Positions 172 to 10,500 of a stretch of DNA of 50,727 nucleotides are shown here, piece by piece; position 1 is the first letter of the stretch; each line of letters opens with the position of its first letter. A program made the translations under genes and the position numbers. Below the pieces are notes generated by a model, which did not search any database, was not told the origin of the DNA, and saw nothing but the letters and a program-made list of their open reading frames with translations. The DNA lies in assembly GCF_003550015.1 (NCBI RefSeq), contig NZ_QXEV01000004.1, forward strand, positions 1-50,727, given 5' to 3'. Source of the stretch: Anaeroplasma bactoclasticum. Lineage in GTDB: Bacteria > Bacillota_I > Bacilli_A > Acholeplasmatales > Anaeroplasmataceae.

Positions 172-202
172 GGAAAGAAAAAAGGTAAGCTTTTGACTTA
201 CC
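172..202 (-). terminator. Terminator of the GT8-acyltransferase gene
   Basis: GGTAAG (184-189) and CTTACC (197-202) form a 6-bp stem with a 7-nt loop, followed on the minus strand by a run of six T. The stop codon of the gene (198-200) lies inside the first arm of the stem as transcribed. Confidence 0.75.
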
Positions 203-1982
203 TTACTGCATATTCTAGTGGAATATTATATGTTTTTTCATATATATCCTTCCATAAAGAATAATTCTCATTCATTAAATAATTAATTTGAGCTTTGGAA
301 TTTTCTTCCTTATTTGGATATATTGGCTTTCCAATATGAATAGTATATTCTTGTACCTTAAAGCCATCGCTATCTACAATATCAGAATCCTCCATTGTAA
401 TAAAGCATGGTACAACAGGTACATTACTTTTAACTGCAAATTGGAATGCACCCTTTTGAAGTGGCTTTGGCTTTCTATAATTCCACCACATAGATTGTTC
501 TGGATAAACAAGCACGAAATTACCTTTTTCTAGTAATGTATTGGTAGATTTCATAAATTGCTGCATAGCCTTCATATTTGTAGCTAGTGGCAATGTATAA
601 CAATTTCTCATTAAAAATCCATAGAAGCCAGGGAAGCTTGTGTAATTACCTTCACGAATTACACGGTAAAATCTTCTTTTTCTTCTTTCGGATTTTTTAA
701 TGCATGTTTCATATGCAACCTGAATTGCAAAGGAATCTAATGCATTAAAATGATTACATGTCAAAATAGCACCACTATCTAAGTTCCTTAAATTCTCGAT
801 ACCCTCAATATCCTTAATAATCATTTGCTTATTACGGATAATTTTATTTAAAAATCTTCTTGCAACAAAATATGCTGCCTTTGTTTTAATCTTAGAAGTA
901 ACCTTCTTCTTTAAATAATCAACTTCGCCAGGTAAAATCTCACGACTGGGAGGATCCTGTTCAACATCTTCAGCAAATCTGCCTTCAACCTCATAAGAAC
1001 GAATCTTCTTCATAATTCTTAAGCGGTCAATAGAATGAACAGCAATTTCACCCTTCTGTAATAATTTATAATAAGAATCACTTCTTAAGGATTCACTAAT
1101 TGCTAGAGCCTCTAAAATCTTAGCCTGCTCCATATCTCTTAAGACTTGCTCTTCTTTATAATTCTCTTGAATTTCTTTAATTTCATCATATCCAGGAGTC
1201 ATAATAGCATATTTCCAGAAATGCTCACCTAAAGGACCATTTTTCATATGCCATGGCTTACCCCACATAATATAATGAATCATATTGATATCTTCATCTT
1301 TGTATTTGATTTCACCATAAATTTCAACATTCCATGAATTATCAATCCATAATACCTTATGGTTACAAATAACATTTAAGTAATCCTCATCCTGAGTAAC
1401 TTGGAATCTATAAACTCCAAGTAGGTTAATGAACTGATCTAATACACAATCCTCACGGAACTTCTTTGTGTTAATTAGCATTAAGCCTGCATTAAAGAAT
1501 TCATCTCTTTTAACACCACAAACCTCTTCAACATAATTACCATAACATTCTGTTTGGATCATTGCCTGCTCATTACATGCTCCACAATAATAATTTGTAA
1601 TATCATGGCTAAAGAATTTAGAAATATCACCTAATACTACAGTATCAGAATCAATATAGATTGCCTTATCATATTCTTCAAACATTTCTGCAATGAAGAA
1701 ACGGAAATAAGTTGTCTTGTTGTAATAATCTCTTACTGGTAGACGAGATTCGATTCCTTCATAGTAGCTAGATACATCTACATATTCAACACTAAATCCC
1801 TTTTTGGAAACAGAGGAATACTTTTCCTTTGTTTCTTCCTTTATATCTGTATTTAAAATGTATACTCTATATTCAAAATCTGGTGATGCATTTTCCATAA
1901 TGGACTTTAAAGTAACCATTGTGAACTTAACATATTTGTCATCACACGCAAAGAATATAGGAACGATTTTCTTTTGATTCAT
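198..1982 (-). CDS. GT8 glycosyltransferase fused to a PlsC-type acyltransferase
   Basis: The 594-residue protein joins two enzyme domains. Residues 1-265 look like a family 8 glycosyltransferase (nucleotide-sugar, retaining): the metal-binding DSD at 111-113, FFNAG at 162-166, QDED at 197-200 and a C-terminal H236...GKPWH 241-245 motif. Residues 270-390 are a charged, largely helical linker. Residues 395-575 look like a lysophospholipid acyltransferase of the PlsC superfamily: NHxxxxD with N410, H411 and D416, YPEQ at 493-496 where the family has FPEG, and VPVVP at 521-525. No signal peptide or clear transmembrane helix is visible, so the protein is probably cytoplasmic or membrane-peripheral. 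A glycolipid assembly role is inferred from the two domains. The start follows AAGGAGG and a TTGACA-17-TATCAT promoter; the gene diverges from an XRE regulator. Confidence 0.85.
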   Translation of the reverse strand: MNQKKIVPIFFACDDKYVKFTMVTLKSIMENASPDFEYRVYILNTDIKEETKEKYSSVSKKGFSVEYVDVSSYYEGIESRLPVRDYYNKTTYFRFFIAEMFEEYDKAIYIDSDTVVLGDISKFFSHDITNYYCGACNEQAMIQTECYGNYVEEVCGVKRDEFFNAGLMLINTKKFREDCVLDQFINLLGVYRFQVTQDEDYLNVICNHKVLWIDNSWNVEIYGEIKYKDEDINMIHYIMWGKPWHMKNGPLGEHFWKYAIMTPGYDEIKEIQENYKEEQVLRDMEQAKILEALAISESLRSDSYYKLLQKGEIAVHSIDRLRIMKKIRSYEVEGRFAEDVEQDPPSREILPGEVDYLKKKVTSKIKTKAAYFVARRFLNKIIRNKQMIIKDIEGIENLRNLDSGAILTCNHFNALDSFAIQVAYETCIKKSERRKRRFYRVIREGNYTSFPGFYGFLMRNCYTLPLATNMKAMQQFMKSTNTLLEKGNFVLVYPEQSMWWNYRKPKPLQKGAFQFAVKSNVPVVPCFITMEDSDIVDSDGFKVQEYTIHIGKPIYPNKEENSKAQINYLMNENYSLWKDIYEKTYNIPLEYAVR

Positions 1983-2026
1983 AAGAAAAATACCTCCTTG
2001 GTTCTTCTTTTAAAAAAACCGACTGA

Positions 2027-2055
2027 ATGATAAAACATTATCGCTCTACTGTCAA
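2027..2055 (-). promoter_or_regulatory. Sigma-A promoter of the GT8-acyltransferase gene
   Basis: On the minus strand, a perfect TTGACA (2050-2055) and TATCAT (2027-2032) are separated by 17 bp. A TCTAC/GTAGA motif (2045-2049) touches the -35 box and may be an operator half-site. Confidence 0.8.
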
Positions 2056-2123
2056 TAATATATAAGGCTACATCGAATTCTACACACATTCTACCTTAAA
2101 AAAACTACTCTACTCACAGTAGA
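2045..2123. promoter_or_regulatory. Cluster of TCTAC repeats, candidate operator
   Basis: TCTAC occurs on the plus strand at 2045, 2079, 2090 and 2109, and its inverse GTAGA at 2119, so 2109-2123 is a 5-5-5 inverted repeat. The cluster lies between the divergent GT8 and XRE promoters and one copy abuts the GT8 -35 box. Binding by the adjacent XRE protein is inference only. Confidence 0.35.
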
Positions 2124-2162
2124 ATTTGCATTATAACCCTAGTTTTTGCGAGGAAAATGGGG

Positions 2163-2168
2163 TATAAT
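2163..2168 (+). promoter_or_regulatory. -10 box of the XRE gene; transcript probably leaderless
   Basis: A consensus TATAAT ends 8 nt before the ATG at 2177. With normal initiation 6-8 nt after the -10 box, the mRNA would start at or within about two bases of the start codon, leaving no room for a Shine-Dalgarno site. The -35 region is weak (TAGTTT at 2140). Confidence 0.6.
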
Positions 2169-2176
2169 AGTGATGT

Positions 2177-2773
2177 ATGAGTGATTTAAAGAAATTAATA
2201 GCTCAAAATTTAGTAGAGCTAAGAAAGTCAAGAAAATATACACAACAGGATATAGCCAATATGGTTCAGTATTCTGATAAAGCCGTATCAAAGTGGGAGA
2301 AAGGAGAATCATTACCTGATATCGAGGTTCTTTATCAGATTTGTAACATATATGGTGTTACCCTAGATTATCTAACTCATGATGGAGCTTATGATGAGAA
2401 AAAGGAATATGTAATTCCTCAATCGGAATTCAGAAATCGAATCATCATCACAGCTTTATTCTCTTCCATTATTTGGATGGGTGTAATCATTGTGTACGTA
2501 TATCAGAATTTATACCAAGAGTTTAACAATTGGCCTATTTTCATTTGGGCAGTTCCAGCAAATTGCGTTCTTCTTTGGTTTTTCAATATGAAATGGGGAA
2601 GACGCAAATGGTTCATTGTCATTGGCTCTATATTCGTTTGGACATTAATTGCAGGATTATATTTACAAATCCTTTATACATCCCATTTCGAATATAATTA
2701 TTGGATGCTATTTTTAATTGGTATTCCAATTCAAGTAGCATTAGGCTTATTAACTCAATTAAGACATTATTAA
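2177..2773 (+). CDS. Membrane-anchored XRE-family transcription regulator
   Basis: The protein has 198 residues. Residues 8-63 are an XRE helix-turn-helix with the typical YTQQDIANMV recognition region followed by SDKAVSKWEKGESLPD. The rest holds four hydrophobic segments (about 89-109, 119-137, 143-167 and 173-192), so the DNA-binding domain is probably tethered to the inner face of the membrane. The start gives a normal-length XRE N-terminus and lies 8 nt after a TATAAT box. It may respond to a membrane or envelope signal and control itself and the divergent glycolipid gene; both statements are inference. A bidirectional terminator follows. Confidence 0.85.
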   Translation: MSDLKKLIAQNLVELRKSRKYTQQDIANMVQYSDKAVSKWEKGESLPDIEVLYQICNIYGVTLDYLTHDGAYDEKKEYVIPQSEFRNRIIITALFSSIIWMGVIIVYVYQNLYQEFNNWPIFIWAVPANCVLLWFFNMKWGRRKWFIVIGSIFVWTLIAGLYLQILYTSHFEYNYWMLFLIGIPIQVALGLLTQLRHY

Positions 2774-2803
2774 AAAGAAAGTCCACAAGGGACTTCTTTT
2801 TTT
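2774..2803. terminator. Bidirectional terminator between convergent genes
   Basis: AAGTCC and GGACTT arms (2779-2784 and 2790-2795, extended by A/T pairs with one bulge) are flanked by A-rich and T-rich runs, so the hairpin can end transcription from the XRE gene and from the SGNH-like gene. Confidence 0.75.
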
Positions 2804-3233
2804 ATGCTGCAAGAAGAACCTTGCGATAGTTTATATTATCTAAGTTATATAATGCACGAACCTCATCAATTACATCTAAATATAGATTATTCTTCTTACA
2901 TAATGGATTTTGAAGTTCAATCTTTACTCCATAATAATTACAAATAGATATAATTTCGATTAGATTCTTTCTAAATGCTTCCTTATCTATTCCTTCTTCC
3001 ATATCTCCTTCACCTAAGGATAAGATACAGTAATCAAAGGATCCCAATTTCAAAAAAGCTTTTACAAGAAGCATTGCTTCTTTGGAAGTAAGATTCTTTT
3101 TAGATAAATTATATACATCATATTTTTTATAAAGCATTCTAAGATAGTATTCATTCGATATAAAATATATACCATTCTTTATATATTCTCTTAAATAATG
3201 TGAACATCCGGCAATTAGAATTCTTTTTTCCAT
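2802..3233 (-). CDS. Reduced SGNH-hydrolase-like protein of unknown function
   Basis: The protein has 143 residues. It begins with a beta strand and turn (RILIAGCSHYL) resembling block I of SGNH/GDSL hydrolases with the serine kept (GCS), and later has ILSLGEGD and an FRKNLIEIISICNYYGVKIEL stretch that resembles the block III region and the strand after it. The C-terminal Asp-x-x-His pair expected of an active SGNH enzyme is not seen; the matching place reads YLDVIDEVRALYN. At 143 residues it is shorter than usual (about 190-220). It may be a degenerate or non-catalytic relative; the family assignment is tentative. It has its own strong promoter and an AAGGAG ribosome site. Confidence 0.55.
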   Translation of the reverse strand: MEKRILIAGCSHYLREYIKNGIYFISNEYYLRMLYKKYDVYNLSKKNLTSKEAMLLVKAFLKLGSFDYCILSLGEGDMEEGIDKEAFRKNLIEIISICNYYGVKIELQNPLCKKNNLYLDVIDEVRALYNLDNINYRKVLLAA

Positions 3234-4040: not shown

Positions 4041-4077
4041 AAAACGGAAGCAAATTTGAATTGCTTCCGTTTTTATT
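4041..4077. terminator. Bidirectional terminator between DUF1836 gene and proC
   Basis: A 13-bp perfect stem (4041-4053 with 4061-4073; core ACGGAAGCAA) with a 7-nt loop has A-runs on the left and T-runs on the right, so it works in both directions. Confidence 0.9.
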
Positions 4078-4870
4078 ATTTACTTAATTCTTTCGAACGA
4101 TTTGCACAAGCTCTTGCACATTTAGAAATAGTATCTTCAAAGCCATTTTCTTTCAATACATTTAATCCTGCAATTGTTGTACCACCCTTAGAACAAACAT
4201 TTGTAATCAATTGATCTATAGAGTCTTCACTTTTTAAAATCATATCTGCAGAAGCTTTAATAGATTCTGCAGCTAGCTTCTTAGCTACATCATAATCGAT
4301 ACCACATTTAACCGCATCATCAATAAATGCTTTCGCAAATAAATATAGGTATGCTGGCATTGAACCATTTAAAGCTAAGGAATCATCCATTTCTGATTCT
4401 TTTATAGGGTATGCAACACCAATAGATCTAAATACTCTTAATGCACTTGTAAAGAATATATTTGAATCATCTAAGCTACAAAGAGTTGTAACTCCTTCTT
4501 TAATTTGAGCTGGTGTATTTGGCATAGCACGAACAACAAAGGCATTATTGAAGTAGCTTTGGATATAAGATATAGTTAATCCTGCTGCAATACTTATTAC
4601 ACATCTACCACTAAAATCATAATTCTTTGCATCCTCTAATACTTCAGGAAACATTTGAGGCTTTATAGCAATTAAAATAATCTTAGAATTTTCTAATACC
4701 TCTTCAATATGATTGGTTACATTATAGCCTTCCATTCTATATTTAGCTAGCTTTTCAAAGGAATGAATATGTAATAGGATATCCTCCTTTTGATATACGC
4801 CACTTCTTAATACTCCCTCTAAAATGGCACTACCCATTTTACCAACACCTAAAATTGCAATCTGATACAT
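4076..4870 (-). CDS. proC: Pyrroline-5-carboxylate reductase
   Basis: The protein has 264 residues and performs the last step of proline synthesis, reducing pyrroline-5-carboxylate with NAD(P)H. A Rossmann start (ILGVGKMGSAILEGVL) lies at residues 5-20, AIKPQMFPEVL follows near 68, and VVRAMPNTPAQIKEGVTTL near 112 is the conserved family block. The C-terminal dimerisation domain has the GGTTIAGLNVL signature. The start overlaps the proA stop by one base (TAATG), so translation is coupled. It is the third gene of proB-proA-proC. Confidence 0.95.
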   Translation of the reverse strand: MYQIAILGVGKMGSAILEGVLRSGVYQKEDILLHIHSFEKLAKYRMEGYNVTNHIEEVLENSKIILIAIKPQMFPEVLEDAKNYDFSGRCVISIAAGLTISYIQSYFNNAFVVRAMPNTPAQIKEGVTTLCSLDDSNIFFTSALRVFRSIGVAYPIKESEMDDSLALNGSMPAYLYLFAKAFIDDAVKCGIDYDVAKKLAAESIKASADMILKSEDSIDQLITNVCSKGGTTIAGLNVLKENGFEDTISKCARACANRSKELSK

Positions 4871-6114
4871 TACTCTCTCACCTGACCATTTCCATAAATT
4901 AAATACTTATACGTTGTAATTTCCTTTAACCCCATAGGACCTCTAGAATGAAGCTTGCCTGTTGAAATACCAATTTCAGCGCCAAACCCAAAGCATCCAC
5001 CATCTGTAAATCTTGTAGATGCATTATGGTATACACATGCAGAATCAATTTCATTCATGAATTTTACATAAGCATGAATATCTTCTGTAATAATAGCCTC
5101 ACTATGCTTTGTAGAATGTAAATTGATATGTGCTATTGCTTCATCTAAATTTTTAACTACCTTAACTGCAACAATATAATCATTATATTCTGTATAATAA
5201 TCCTCCAAAGTAGCTTCATTACAAGAAATTATCTTTCTTGTTTTTTCGTCTCCTCTGATTTCTATTTTAAGAGAATCAAATTCCTTTTTTAACATTGGTA
5301 AAAAGGATTCTGCTATTTTTTCATCAACAATAATATTCTCTATTGCATTACATACACTAGGACGAGAATATTTTGCGTTTATAGCAATTTTCATTGCCAT
5401 ATCTAGATTTGCCTTTTCATGAACATATAAATGACAATTACCAGCTCCTGTTTCAATATATGGAACCTTGGCATTGGATACTACATATTGAATTAATCCT
5501 TTAGATCCTCTAGGAATTAATAAATCAATATATTCCTTTTTCACAATAAGCTCATTCGTTGCGCTTCTATCTGTAGATTCGATTAAAGTGATACAATTAG
5601 GATTTACAATATCTTTAATTGCATCTTGCATAATCTTGCATAAAGCTTTATTTGTTAATATAGCCTCTTTTCCACCCTTTAATACACAAGCATTTGCAGT
5701 TTTAATACATAATGCTGCAATATCTACACATACATTTGGTCTAGATTCAAAGATAACTGCAATAACTCCAAAAGGAACTCTTACCTTATCAATCCTTAAA
5801 CCATTATCCCTATTGTAGCTTTCAATAACCTCACCTATATAATTTGGTAATTCTATAACATCTAAAATACCTTGGACTAATCCATCAATTCTTTTATCAT
5901 TTAAGGTTAATCTTTCAATCATAGATTCCTTTAAACCGGATGCTTTAGCTATTTCTATATCCTTTTTATTTTCTTCTATGATATATTCTTTATTCTTTAA
6001 AATAGCTTCGCTTATTCTTTTTAGCATTAAATTTCTATCTTCATTTGTAAGCTTTAGAAGCTCTTTTTCAGCTTCCTTTGTATTATTTAAGATACTATTT
6101 AACGAATCTTCCAT
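4870..6114 (-). CDS. proA: Gamma-glutamyl phosphate reductase
   Basis: The protein has 414 residues, the usual length. It reduces glutamyl-5-phosphate to glutamate semialdehyde using NADPH. It belongs to the aldehyde dehydrogenase superfamily: FESRPNVCVDIAALCIKTANACVLKGGKEA marks the cofactor-binding half, and SRPSVCNAIENIIVD holds the cysteine nucleophile region. The start at 6114 follows AAAGGAGG and lies 20 nt inside the end of proB, as expected for coupled translation with the kinase whose unstable product it consumes. Confidence 0.96.
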   Translation of the reverse strand: MEDSLNSILNNTKEAEKELLKLTNEDRNLMLKRISEAILKNKEYIIEENKKDIEIAKASGLKESMIERLTLNDKRIDGLVQGILDVIELPNYIGEVIESYNRDNGLRIDKVRVPFGVIAVIFESRPNVCVDIAALCIKTANACVLKGGKEAILTNKALCKIMQDAIKDIVNPNCITLIESTDRSATNELIVKKEYIDLLIPRGSKGLIQYVVSNAKVPYIETGAGNCHLYVHEKANLDMAMKIAINAKYSRPSVCNAIENIIVDEKIAESFLPMLKKEFDSLKIEIRGDEKTRKIISCNEATLEDYYTEYNDYIVAVKVVKNLDEAIAHINLHSTKHSEAIITEDIHAYVKFMNEIDSACVYHNASTRFTDGGCFGFGAEIGISTGKLHSRGPMGLKEITTYKYLIYGNGQVRE

Positions 6115-7240
6115 AATATCCCTCCTTTAGAATTACCATATCATCGGCATAGACGATACCTTTCTTTGTATGAAAGTCAATTATACTTTCTGCAGTCTTA
6201 GAGTCTTTTCCTTTAACGGAATCTATTTCGCTTGAGGAATGGTTTGTAATTCCTTTCGCTAATATAATTCCATCTAAAGAGATTATATCTATAACAGAAC
6301 CACTTAAGAATTCTCCATCTACTTTGGTAATTCCTTTTGGTAATATAGATACCTTTCTTTTTTCAAGTAGTTCTTTAACTCCATTATCTACAGTAATAGC
6401 CCCTTGGCTATTTGCTTTAAATATCATCCAATGTTCTCTAGAAGAGATTCCTTTTTCTTGTGCTTTAAATAATGTACCAATATTTTTCCCCTCTGCAATA
6501 TCTATAAGCGAATCAAGCTTATTTGAATTACAAATAATCATATTTACTCCAACCATAGTTGAAATTAATGCAGCATCGATTTTTGTTTCCATTCCACCAG
6601 TTCCAACATTTGTTGTGGAACCAGATACCATAGATAAAATATTGGAATCTATTTTATCTACTATATCTACCATTACTGCATCCTTATAAACCTTAGGATT
6701 TTTAGTATATAATCCATCAATATCAGAAAATAAAACTAATAAGTCAGCATCTACCATTGGTGCAATTAAGGCTGCAAGTGTATCATTATCTCCAACCTTA
6801 ATTTCTTCAACAGCTAATGCATCATTTTCATTGATAACTGGTACAATATTATTTTTAAACATGCTATCTAAAGTATTTGATAAATATAGCATTCTTTTTC
6901 TTACTTGGAAGTCATCATGATTTACTAATATTTGTCCAAGCTTGATATTATATATTTCTGCAGCCTTATTATATGCTTCCATAAGCTTCGCTTGTCCAAC
7001 TGCCGCACAAGCCTGTTTTAATGCCATGTCCTTAGGCTTATGCTCTAGCCCCAAGACATTCATTCCAACCGCTATCGCACCAGAGGTTACTAAAGCTACA
7101 TCAATTCCCTTTTTCTTTAAATTAGAGAACTCATGCATAATAGTAACAAGCATTGGCATATTTACAGAATAATCACTCTTAACTAAAGAGGATGAACCTA
7201 CTTTTATTATGATTCTTTTAATATTCTGAAAATTTCTCAT
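6095..7240 (-). CDS. proB: Glutamate 5-kinase with PUA domain
   Basis: The protein has 381 residues. It phosphorylates glutamate as the first committed step of proline synthesis. Residues 8-260 are the amino-acid kinase fold with IIKVGSSSLV (phosphate binding), VALVTSGAIAVG, NENDALAVEEIKVGDNDTLAA and GTGGMETKIDAA (catalytic lysine region). Residues 280-375 form the C-terminal PUA domain seen in longer ProB proteins. It is the likely site of proline feedback, known for the family. It is the first gene of the operon, about 45 nt after the terminator of the preceding gene. A possible extended -10 box TGGTAAAAT lies at 7269-7277. Confidence 0.96.
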   Translation of the reverse strand: MRNFQNIKRIIIKVGSSSLVKSDYSVNMPMLVTIMHEFSNLKKKGIDVALVTSGAIAVGMNVLGLEHKPKDMALKQACAAVGQAKLMEAYNKAAEIYNIKLGQILVNHDDFQVRKRMLYLSNTLDSMFKNNIVPVINENDALAVEEIKVGDNDTLAALIAPMVDADLLVLFSDIDGLYTKNPKVYKDAVMVDIVDKIDSNILSMVSGSTTNVGTGGMETKIDAALISTMVGVNMIICNSNKLDSLIDIAEGKNIGTLFKAQEKGISSREHWMIFKANSQGAITVDNGVKELLEKRKVSILPKGITKVDGEFLSGSVIDIISLDGIILAKGITNHSSSEIDSVKGKDSKTAESIIDFHTKKGIVYADDMVILKEGYYGRFVK

Positions 7241-7305: not shown

Positions 7306-10300
7306 CTAGTTTTTTCTTCTTTTTACTCCTTGGAGTAAGTCTTTTATACGGAATCTCTTATTATAATAATTACCAAAAATATATTGATAACCATTTTCTC
7401 TTGCCATATCTATATCTATACTACTATCCATATTCGATAGGATAACTGTAACATTATGCTTTTCACATAATTCTAATATTTCTGGAATAGAGCTTGAATT
7501 TACTCCATGGTAATCATAAATTAGATAATCACATAAGCCTCTATATACATCAAATATATCTTTAGATGCTAAATGATAATTTGTATCACGCAAGGATTCT
7601 AGGCATGTATTATGAATAGAATCTGTAACTAAAGTTATATATTTTGGATTAACCTTATAAAACTTCTCATTTGTAGCTAGAGATTCTAAATATTTTTCTT
7701 CTAATGTTTCTTTAGAAACAGGAATAAATAAATTAGGATAAGCTTTTGTTTCATTATTAAATAATCTCATCTCTTGATAAGCCATACGAAGCATATATTT
7801 TTCTATATTAGAAACTAATCCTTTTTTCTTTATGACATTATCCATATCTTCTTTAGATATTTCTAAAGTATCCATACTAATTTCTAAATAGAAGCCTAAT
7901 ACCTTATTTCCTGTTAAATTTACTATTTGCTTATACATCAAAGAAAGCTTACCTTGATCTATTGCTTCACTAATTGCAGTTACTAAATGATTTTGATAGA
8001 ATCTTTCTTTCGCAAGATGGGAATCATAATGAGCAATATGATTATCTAAAGAATCCATATTTGATGCATCAATTAATGCATCACTTGCATTTTCAATTAG
8101 CTCATGAATATCATTAAAATTCATATTTTTACCTAATCGAAATACACCAGCATTAAATCTTATATTTACTCTATAATTTAATTGCTTCATAGAAAGCGAT
8201 GCATTATCTAATGCATTTTTAAGTATAGAATCTACAATTCTTTTATCATTGATATCCTTGATTAAAACTGCATAGGTTGTACCAAATAAATGATATAATT
8301 CGATATTAAAATGATTACTGAAGGCATCCTTTAGCTTTAATCCTACGGCATAGATTACTTGATTATAGAAATTTAAGCCATAAATATCTTTATAGAATAA
8401 GGAATCTATAACATCAATAATAACTAAGGATAATTTCTTTTTAGAATATTCCTTAGCTAAATCAACAGTCAATTTAACCTCTGTTTGCATATGAGATATA
8501 GGATTTTCATATGCTAGAGCAACTAAATCATCCTTTTCCTTTTTCTCGCTTGTAATATCTTCTATTAAAGAATAAATGATAATCATTCCATTATTTAATA
8601 ATGGATAGAATCTTTCTTTAATTCTAACCTTACTATTTCCCTTTTTGAAATCATATTCAAAGATAATATCTTTAGACTTTAGGGCATATAATTCTTTTAA
8701 TATTTCTTTATATTTTATGACATCAGAAGATTCCATATGCATAAAATAATCTTTATCTGTTAAGGTTTCTAATACGCCAAGTATTTCTTGAGCTTTATCG
8801 GAAAAATGATAATAGCCTTCTAAATTCTCTATAACACCTAAAGACATATTTTCTTGAATGAATAGCATTTTACTATTTTTAATATCATTCTTTTCTCTAT
8901 CTAAATACTCAATTAATTTTGTATTTAAAACGGAAGTTATAAGCTTTAAGGATTCATAGCATAAATCTTCACTTAAAAATGGTGTATCAGATAAATATGT
9001 AATAGAACCAAGCTCTCTATTATTATCAAATAATGGAATAGCTATAGCATAAGTATCACTGATAAAATCTTTTCCTGTAACGATACTTTTAGAATAAGTT
9101 TTATCTGATAAATCTAAGAATACCTCACGCCCCATTTGCATAGCCTGATATCCAAGTGTACCATCTAATAAATCGACCTTTGGTTCTTTATCATATACTC
9201 TTTCAACCTTATAATGCAAACCTAAATATTTATAATCAAAATATAATAAATAGATTTCTTTTATAGAATATTGATTAGCTATTTCTATAGAAGCTCTTCG
9301 AAATGCTTCTCTAAATTTAACATTATGGTCTACTTGATTCATTGTATCAAAAATTATAGATAGCTTTCTATAATTTTCGGATACAGTTATATTCTTAACC
9401 GTCTTAATATCTTCAATTACCTTTTGACTTTGTAAAGGTAATTCTACTACTTTAGGATTTAATATACCAAGAGGACTATAGCTTGTATCTTCAGCCTTAA
9501 TTAAAGGAAGTGTAACCTCTTCCTTTTCTTCTATAGTAGGAATTACAATTTCTTCTTTTTTCTTGGATTTTTTTACAACCTTTTTGATATCTTCCTTCGG
9601 ATTTAATACATCCTCTAATTCTTCTATTTTTCTTCTATAAGAAATAATAGATGAAGCTGTATTCGTATGAATATATAAATCTAGAGCCGCTTTAGCAAAC
9701 TCTAAGGATTCCTTAGGATAATCTATTGTTATATATTCTTCATAATTACTTTCTACAATAGAAGCCTTTTTATAATTATCTACTAAAATATATGATTTAA
9801 TCATATAAGATGCGATTAATAGCTTCTTATCAATAGATGCATCATATTCATTAAAGAAGGAATCTCCATCTTGAATGACTCTTATATAATTCTTTCTTAT
9901 AAAAGCTATTTCTATTTTATTTTTAGCTATTTCTTCTTGATGAGATAAATCTAGAGTTGTTGCATAATAGGATTCAAGCCTTGGAATTAATTCTAAATAT
10001 TTATCATAATCTCTTTCCATATAATAAATATCCGATAATTTTTCTAAAGCAAAGATTTCTTCTTCTCTAGTGATATCATCATCTAGATATTCCTTTAAAG
10101 ATTGTTTAGCATTTTCGTAATCACGTTTTGCTAAATATAATCTTGTAGAATCCTTAATATACTCACTTTGACGTGAAATAGGTAAATATTTTTGTTTGAT
10201 ACGAATATATTTTGCTGCTTGATCATATGCACCAATAGAAATAGTAACATCAACAATAGAACTACATAAGGCAATTACTCCTTCGGAATCCATTTTATTG

Positions 10301-10491
10301 ATATCAGGTACATATTCATATAATAATTTTAATGCATCATTCGTTTTACCAAGCTCATGTAAAACTAAGCCTTTATAGGCTATAGCCTTCATGTAATCTT
10401 TTGAAAATTTAGTCTTTTGGCTTACAAAAAGATCAATCTTTTTTACCGAAGACTGTACTTTATCTAATTGTAAGATTTCATCTAAAGACAT
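7306..10491 (-). CDS. TPR-GAF-PAS protein with degenerate GGDEF and EAL domains
   Basis: The protein has 1061 residues and no signal peptide or membrane segment. Residues 1-290 are helical, TPR-like repeats; 300-345 a charged linker; 375-530 a GAF-like sensor domain; 545-655 a PAS-like domain; 660-815 a diguanylate-cyclase fold and 825-1055 an EAL fold. The cyclase signature is FGTTY (around 737-741) instead of GG[DE]EF, and the EAL signature around 870 reads LEIS while the DDFG-type motif near 994 reads YDYHG. Both enzyme domains therefore look inactive, and the protein may be a nucleotide-binding or scaffold regulator. It follows yfcE by 9 nt and is probably co-transcribed with rdgB-yfcE. 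I use the ATG at 10491; an in-frame TTG lies one codon upstream. Confidence 0.8.
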   Translation of the reverse strand: MSLDEILQLDKVQSSVKKIDLFVSQKTKFSKDYMKAIAYKGLVLHELGKTNDALKLLYEYVPDINKMDSEGVIALCSSIVDVTISIGAYDQAAKYIRIKQKYLPISRQSEYIKDSTRLYLAKRDYENAKQSLKEYLDDDITREEEIFALEKLSDIYYMERDYDKYLELIPRLESYYATTLDLSHQEEIAKNKIEIAFIRKNYIRVIQDGDSFFNEYDASIDKKLLIASYMIKSYILVDNYKKASIVESNYEEYITIDYPKESLEFAKAALDLYIHTNTASSIISYRRKIEELEDVLNPKEDIKKVVKKSKKKEEIVIPTIEEKEEVTLPLIKAEDTSYSPLGILNPKVVELPLQSQKVIEDIKTVKNITVSENYRKLSIIFDTMNQVDHNVKFREAFRRASIEIANQYSIKEIYLLYFDYKYLGLHYKVERVYDKEPKVDLLDGTLGYQAMQMGREVFLDLSDKTYSKSIVTGKDFISDTYAIAIPLFDNNRELGSITYLSDTPFLSEDLCYESLKLITSVLNTKLIEYLDREKNDIKNSKMLFIQENMSLGVIENLEGYYHFSDKAQEILGVLETLTDKDYFMHMESSDVIKYKEILKELYALKSKDIIFEYDFKKGNSKVRIKERFYPLLNNGMIIIYSLIEDITSEKKEKDDLVALAYENPISHMQTEVKLTVDLAKEYSKKKLSLVIIDVIDSLFYKDIYGLNFYNQVIYAVGLKLKDAFSNHFNIELYHLFGTTYAVLIKDINDKRIVDSILKNALDNASLSMKQLNYRVNIRFNAGVFRLGKNMNFNDIHELIENASDALIDASNMDSLDNHIAHYDSHLAKERFYQNHLVTAISEAIDQGKLSLMYKQIVNLTGNKVLGFYLEISMDTLEISKEDMDNVIKKKGLVSNIEKYMLRMAYQEMRLFNNETKAYPNLFIPVSKETLEEKYLESLATNEKFYKVNPKYITLVTDSIHNTCLESLRDTNYHLASKDIFDVYRGLCDYLIYDYHGVNSSSIPEILELCEKHNVTVILSNMDSSIDIDMARENGYQYIFGNYYNKRFRIKDLLQGVKRRKN

Positions 10492-10500
10492 CAATTTTCA

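Follow-up and report, generated by a model that had tools for sequence, protein, structure and literature searches.

A recurrent fusion of a family 8 glycosyltransferase to an acyltransferase in Anaeroplasma bactoclasticum and other anaerobic bacteria, and its proposed role in acylated glycolipid synthesis

A gene at the very edge of a contig of Anaeroplasma bactoclasticum raises the question of whether a family 8 glycosyltransferase (GT8) and a PlsC-type acyltransferase are truly joined in one protein and, if so, what such a protein would make. The window, that is the whole stretch of DNA analysed, covers bases 1-50,727 of a contig of 114.7 kb in a 2.2-Mb assembly. Only 198 bases separate the end of the gene from the end of that contig (G000:C4), so that its 3' neighbour is missing from the assembly. 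One uninterrupted frame at 198-1982 had been predicted to carry both domains, and Pfam recovered both, on the minus strand, which the original prediction had left unstated.

The fusion gene and its protein

The features of the locus are as follows.

198..1982, minus strand: GT8a-AT2 fusion gene, a single open frame with an ATG start (594 aa, 70 kDa)
1993..1998, minus strand: AGGAGG ribosome-binding site of the fusion gene, read from the sequence
1245..1961, minus strand: GT8 domain, residues 8-246, with an LgtC/WbbM-like GT-A fold (PF01501, E 3.3e-43)
1644..1652, minus strand: DSD (DxD) metal/UDP-sugar motif, residues 111-113, both Asp invariant (n=81 homologues)
1029..1085, minus strand: fusion junction, approximately residues 300-318, a variable stretch in alignment A1 that corresponds roughly to the GT8a end and AT2 start in unfused relatives
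399..809, minus strand: acyltransferase domain AT2 (PF01553), residues 392-528 (Pfam E 3.4e-14)
735..755, minus strand: NHFNALD, the HX4D catalytic motif, residues 410-416 (N and H invariant, D in 79/81)
495..506, minus strand: YPEQ motif III, residues 493-496, 100% conserved in 81 fused homologues
1983..2176, no strand: 194-bp intergenic region between the fusion gene and a divergent regulator, from the sequence

Both Pfam assignments exceed their gathering scores, with 148.5 bits against 24.3 for Glyco_transf_8 (PF01501) and 53.2 bits against 23 for PF01553. NCBIfam places the protein in no curated family, its scores staying below the cut-offs of TIGR00530 (AGP acyltransferase/PlsC; 35 vs 102.95 bits) and NF011718 (LPS 3-alpha-galactosyltransferase; 65.8 vs 461 bits). 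Sequence matches to solved structures all fall on the GT8 half (LgtC, WbbM, GlyE and an Anaerococcus GT8), the best being LgtC (E 1e-19). Hydropathy analysis found no transmembrane helix (best 19-residue mean 1.16), the GT8 half is acidic (pI 4.8) and the acyltransferase half is basic (pI 9.4), from which we conclude that the protein is probably peripheral to the membrane.

The motifs named in the original prediction for either half are all present, including NAG (164-166), QDED (197-200), H236-xxxx-GKPW and VPVVP (521-525), and the key residues are conserved throughout the 81 fused sequences in which conservation was counted. D111, D113, FNAG, Q197/D198/D200, H236, K242-P243-W244, N410-H411 and Y493-P494-E495-Q496 reach 100%, residue 416 is E in the two sequences that do not have D, and Q-D-x-D-Y and WWNYxKPxP are invariant or nearly so. 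The G of GKPW varies and is mostly S. A loss of catalytic residues, looked for across the 81 fused sequences, was not seen. YPEQ does replace the expected FPEG, as had been pointed out; this is no peculiarity of the window gene, since YPEQSMWWNY is near-invariant in the fused family. The PlsC motif III FPEGTR is absent, its place being taken by YPEQSMW with a Q invariant in all 81, and in AT2 relatives that are not fused, Y/FPE precedes G, R, Q, S or C.

Comparing the window gene with its relatives of 89% and 78% identity, we obtained dN of approximately 0.06-0.16 and dS of approximately 0.9-1.4, the dN/dS being approximately 0.06-0.15 in both domains and approximately 0.1 in the linker, which indicates purifying selection on both halves. 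Residue conservation together with Ka/Ks far below 1 in both halves excludes a chance origin and likewise rules out a decayed domain. As judged from their residues, the catalytic sites are intact in both halves, and both look active.

The structure prediction proposed at the outset gave a confident AlphaFold model (mean pLDDT 91.8, pTM 0.84). The GT8 half superposes on WbbM with Z 31.1 and on LgtC with Z 26.5 (251 residues, 2.8 A). Because GT8 chains filled the full-length search, AT2 was folded alone (pLDDT 90.2), and its model matched PlsC (Z 15.0), plant, algal and human GPAT (13.9-14.5), PatA (11.9) and LpxM (10.7), all well above unrelated rows. The AT2 profile had no match at E 1 among the sequences of solved structures (PDB), PatA included. 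With PatA ranking behind PlsC and GPAT, the modelled AT2 fold appears nearer to the latter two, a difference of a kind that cannot assign the acceptor.

Recurrence of the fused form and its cassette

The possibility had been raised that an assembly error had merged two genes. Homologues with the halves in separate genes are indeed present in the genus and the family, but an assembly join is ruled out. Among 100 related genomes, the full-length protein lies in one frame in ten other genomes of the same genus (58-89% identity), and the halves are neighbouring genes in G017, G026 and G002 of the genus and in G033, G034 and G038 of the family. In G026 and G002 the GT8a and AT2 genes are about 10 bases apart, each with its own start, and in G007 the halves are on different contigs. 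A scan of 84,980 species genomes yielded at least 558 relatives, and among the best 80 named loci, which were analysed, both halves share a single open frame in 80/80 (583-606 aa); these loci include near-copies and repeats of the genus genomes and are not 80 independent cases. The identical frame in the ten genus genomes and in all 80 top named loci excludes an assembly artefact, and the recurrence of full-length homologues in about 90 assemblies points to a true evolutionary fusion.

The best 80 loci come from Anaeroplasma/Acholeplasmatales-type bacteria, Lachnospiraceae, Oscillospiraceae, other Clostridia, Roseburia faecis M72 and Treponema/Spirochaetales, the carriers of the fusion being many anaerobic bacteria known largely from gut and rumen assemblies. 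The spread is patchy, with the protein or one of its halves in 17 of 392 genomes sampled across the phylum of the window (E 1e-40) and in three of 295 genomes of the order of Roseburia (E 1e-60). The way in which clostridial, Anaeroplasma-type and Treponema sequences intermingle may reflect horizontal transfer. A tree of 81 rows, fused and split, with several long branches, shows the two states interspersed; they require at least seven changes, three of them forced by well-supported branches, so that neighbouring cistrons underwent fusion or fission more than once. Since some relatives encode the halves separately, the fusion itself is dispensable and tethering is not needed.

Directly upstream of the fusion and on the same strand, 67 of the 80 named loci carry a second PF01553 acyltransferase (AT1), marked by a 'YYxDELNDEF' start, and a second GT8 (GT8b), both assignments being confirmed by Pfam. 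The fusion is usually the last member, giving AT1-GT8b-[GT8a-AT2]. When neighbours were counted by clustering, the runners-up among true families reached only 8/80 loci each; one cluster of 13 was made up of open frames antisense to the cassette genes. The genome of the window has AT1-GT8b away from the fusion, at C1:27925-29521.

The composition of this cassette is kept in many arrangements. Several relatives have four separate adjacent genes, AT1-GT8b-GT8a-AT2, and other orders are GT8a-AT1-GT8b-AT2, GT8b-GT8a-AT2-AT1 and GT8b-[GT8a-AT2]-AT1, with all four domains retained in the rearranged orders of G290, G265 and G703. L089 has a triple fusion, GT8b-GT8a-AT2, of 875 aa, and in G414 (L161, G414:C15) a tandem GT8a copy precedes the fused gene, as AT1-GT8b-GT8a-[GT8a-AT2]. 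In sister genera, the place between AT1 and AT2 is taken by a membrane GT2 that is weakly PgaC/IcaA-like, either by itself or together with GT8b. That a membrane enzyme can fill the GT slot while the flanking acyltransferase families stay the same is a sign that the acceptor is lipid-linked. In a further search, six genomes (four Clostridia and two Treponema) proved to have the fusion and no recognisable AT1 or GT8b, indicating that the cassette is not obligatory; the same holds for some genomes of the genus, and some of the genomes in which AT1 and GT8b were not recognised are incomplete drafts.

By its sequence, AT1 is a divergent branch of the LPLAT superfamily, and it has no match among PDB sequences or in NCBIfam. 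AT1-type acyltransferases (L131 7926-8702 = G000:C1:27925-28701; L136 4618-5496) carry a YPEAHIWP block and the spacing HX5D, e.g., NHTHNLAD in L021, instead of HX4D. A second AT1-like gene, in L136 4618-6541 (G000:C17), directly follows a GGDEF-domain gene with a slight overlap, an unusual pairing, and in G008 (L028 3283-5218) and G009 (L029 16801-18754) the partner of an AT1-like acyltransferase is a GT4-type (Glycos_transf_1) glycosyltransferase, yet another GT type next to this acyltransferase family.

Proposed function and competing readings

A unit that combines two acyltransferases with two sugar transferases points to an acylated glycolipid. We favour, with confidence and doubt in about equal measure, the reading that the fusion works in glycolipid synthesis as a peripheral enzyme of the inner membrane with two activities, one of them headgroup acylation. 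With a UDP-sugar as donor, the GT8 half would transfer a hexose (probably Glc or Gal, alpha, by a retaining mechanism) to a lipid or glycolipid acceptor at the cytoplasmic face, and the acyltransferase half would acylate the glycolipid, perhaps on the sugar in the manner of PatA. Where present, AT1 and GT8b would add a second acyl group and a second sugar; being fused would hold consecutive steps together in a fixed ratio, though it is not essential. The link to acylated glycolipids drawn in the original prediction holds, but the protein need not form a complete pathway by itself, the four-domain cassette being its normal setting.

Known systems resemble the fusion in part. PatA, the mycobacterial PIM acyltransferase, is an LPLAT enzyme that acylates a glycolipid sugar through His126 and Glu200 (PMC4792965). 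Like the fusion, it belongs to the LPLAT superfamily and works with glycosyltransferases on a glycolipid, and its His and Glu pair would correspond, by motif position, to the conserved H411 and E495; unlike the fusion, it is a separate protein with no GT8 and no detectable sequence relation. LgtC-type galactosyltransferases share the GT8 fold and DxD, whereas their acceptor is lipooligosaccharide and they have no acyltransferase domain. WbbM, on which the GT8 half superposes best, is likewise a two-activity fusion, its partner domain, however, being another glycosyltransferase. PlsC shares PF01553 and HX4D and is the closest solved fold; the fusion differs from it in having YPEQSMWW for FPEGTR, no helix of transmembrane strength by hydropathy and a score short of the TIGR00530 cut-off, and a plain PlsC was accordingly set aside on the cut-off and the motif. 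The acyl-cholesteryl-galactoside of Borrelia is of the same class as the product proposed here; its sugar is a beta-linked galactose added by BB0572, and the acyltransferase for the Borrelia acyl-galactolipids is still unidentified (PMC8168883).

Headgroup acylation is favoured by the make-up of the cassette, by phosphatidic-acid synthesis being encoded elsewhere, by an AT2 that departs from FPEGTR and by the precedent of PatA. The genome encodes PlsY, two PlsX and a protein of 435 aa that has two PF01553 domains in tandem and scores above the TIGR00530 cut-off (L132 5183-6487, G000:C1). In enzymes of the PlsC/GPAT kind, phosphate binding is generally associated with the Arg of FPEGTR. AT2 does not have this block, and basic residues follow in KPxP, given which a phosphorylated acceptor for AT2 may be considered.

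A rather unlikely, still serious alternative is that AT2, with AT1, builds the lipid part by acylating a glycerol or polyol lyso acceptor that the GT8s then glycosylate, yielding an ordinary diacyl diglycosyl lipid, e.g., a lipoteichoic-type anchor. Two acyltransferases and two GT8s would match two acyl chains and two sugars, and PlsC (Z 15.0) and GPAT (Z 14.5) are the closest solved folds; on the other side stand the PlsX, PlsY and TIGR00530-class acyltransferase encoded elsewhere, the YPEQ block with no following Arg, the missed TIGR00530 cut-off and the genomes that have the fusion and no AT1. The GT8 relatives include glycosyltransferases of LOS, O-antigen and adhesins (LgtC, WbbM, GlyE), and these, together with the weak resemblance of the sister-cassette GT2 to PgaC/IcaA, would also suit a glycoconjugate other than a membrane lipid, either a surface-polysaccharide precursor carried on a lipid or a protein or polymer that is both glycosylated and acylated. 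We regard such a product as distinctly improbable, given that two PlsC-type acyltransferases are typical of lipids and that clustering of the neighbours found no further widely shared family around the cassette, unlike the flippases and polymerases of polysaccharide loci.

Adjacent genes can also fuse with no common substrate, so that the two domains might merely be co-translated while their products act on different substrates. The interspersed fused and split states on the tree, with the forced changes among them, and the separate contigs of G007 would fit such an incidental fusion, which we nevertheless consider very improbable: the same four domains stay together through reordering, duplication and further fusion, and among close relatives the fused state is dominant across phyla.

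Returning to headgroup acylation, few bacterial enzymes are, to our knowledge, known to attach a fatty acid to a glycolipid's sugar. No characterised enzyme with the GT8-acyltransferase layout was found, in agreement with the original prediction, and searches of the open literature for the fusion, for glycolipids of Lachnospiraceae and Anaeroplasma and for acyl-glycolipid enzymes returned no description of the fusion or cassette. Both domain families are well known; within that literature, what appears new is the GT8-LPLAT architecture and the cassette. The cassette would open the way to a membrane lipid of gut anaerobes that has so far gone undescribed, and the fused pair in a compact cassette of the cultured human gut bacterium Roseburia faecis M72 is a directly testable candidate. 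A wider proposal, which we put forward tentatively and think unlikely to hold in full, is that gut anaerobes and treponemes owe a new class of headgroup-acylated diglycosyl lipid to an undescribed and probably horizontally spread cassette, which a membrane-anchored XRE sensor would control.

The adjacent regulator and neighbouring genes

Across the intergenic region lies a divergent regulatory gene.

2177..2773, plus strand: XRE-family regulator, 198 aa, with C-terminal membrane helices (HTH_3 E 4.7e-14; hydropathy up to 2.4)

In most relatives of the window and in a few other loci, a homologue of this protein adjoins the first cassette gene, nearly always divergently, and this membrane-anchored protein is the probable regulator of the cassette. 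The 194-bp intergenic region holds no perfect inverted repeat with arms of at least 7 and no palindromic operator.

Other genes of the window deserve mention. A 143-aa protein with no Pfam match (2802-3233) is conserved in several relatives, where it adjoins either the fusion gene or the gene of the regulator. At 4076-7240, near the fusion gene, are proC, proA and proB look-alikes, recognised by eye, which also occur near the fusion in several relatives, some with an intact cassette. A protein of 1062 aa (7306-10494) shows, again by eye, apparent repeats and degenerate GGDEF/EAL-like signalling domains.
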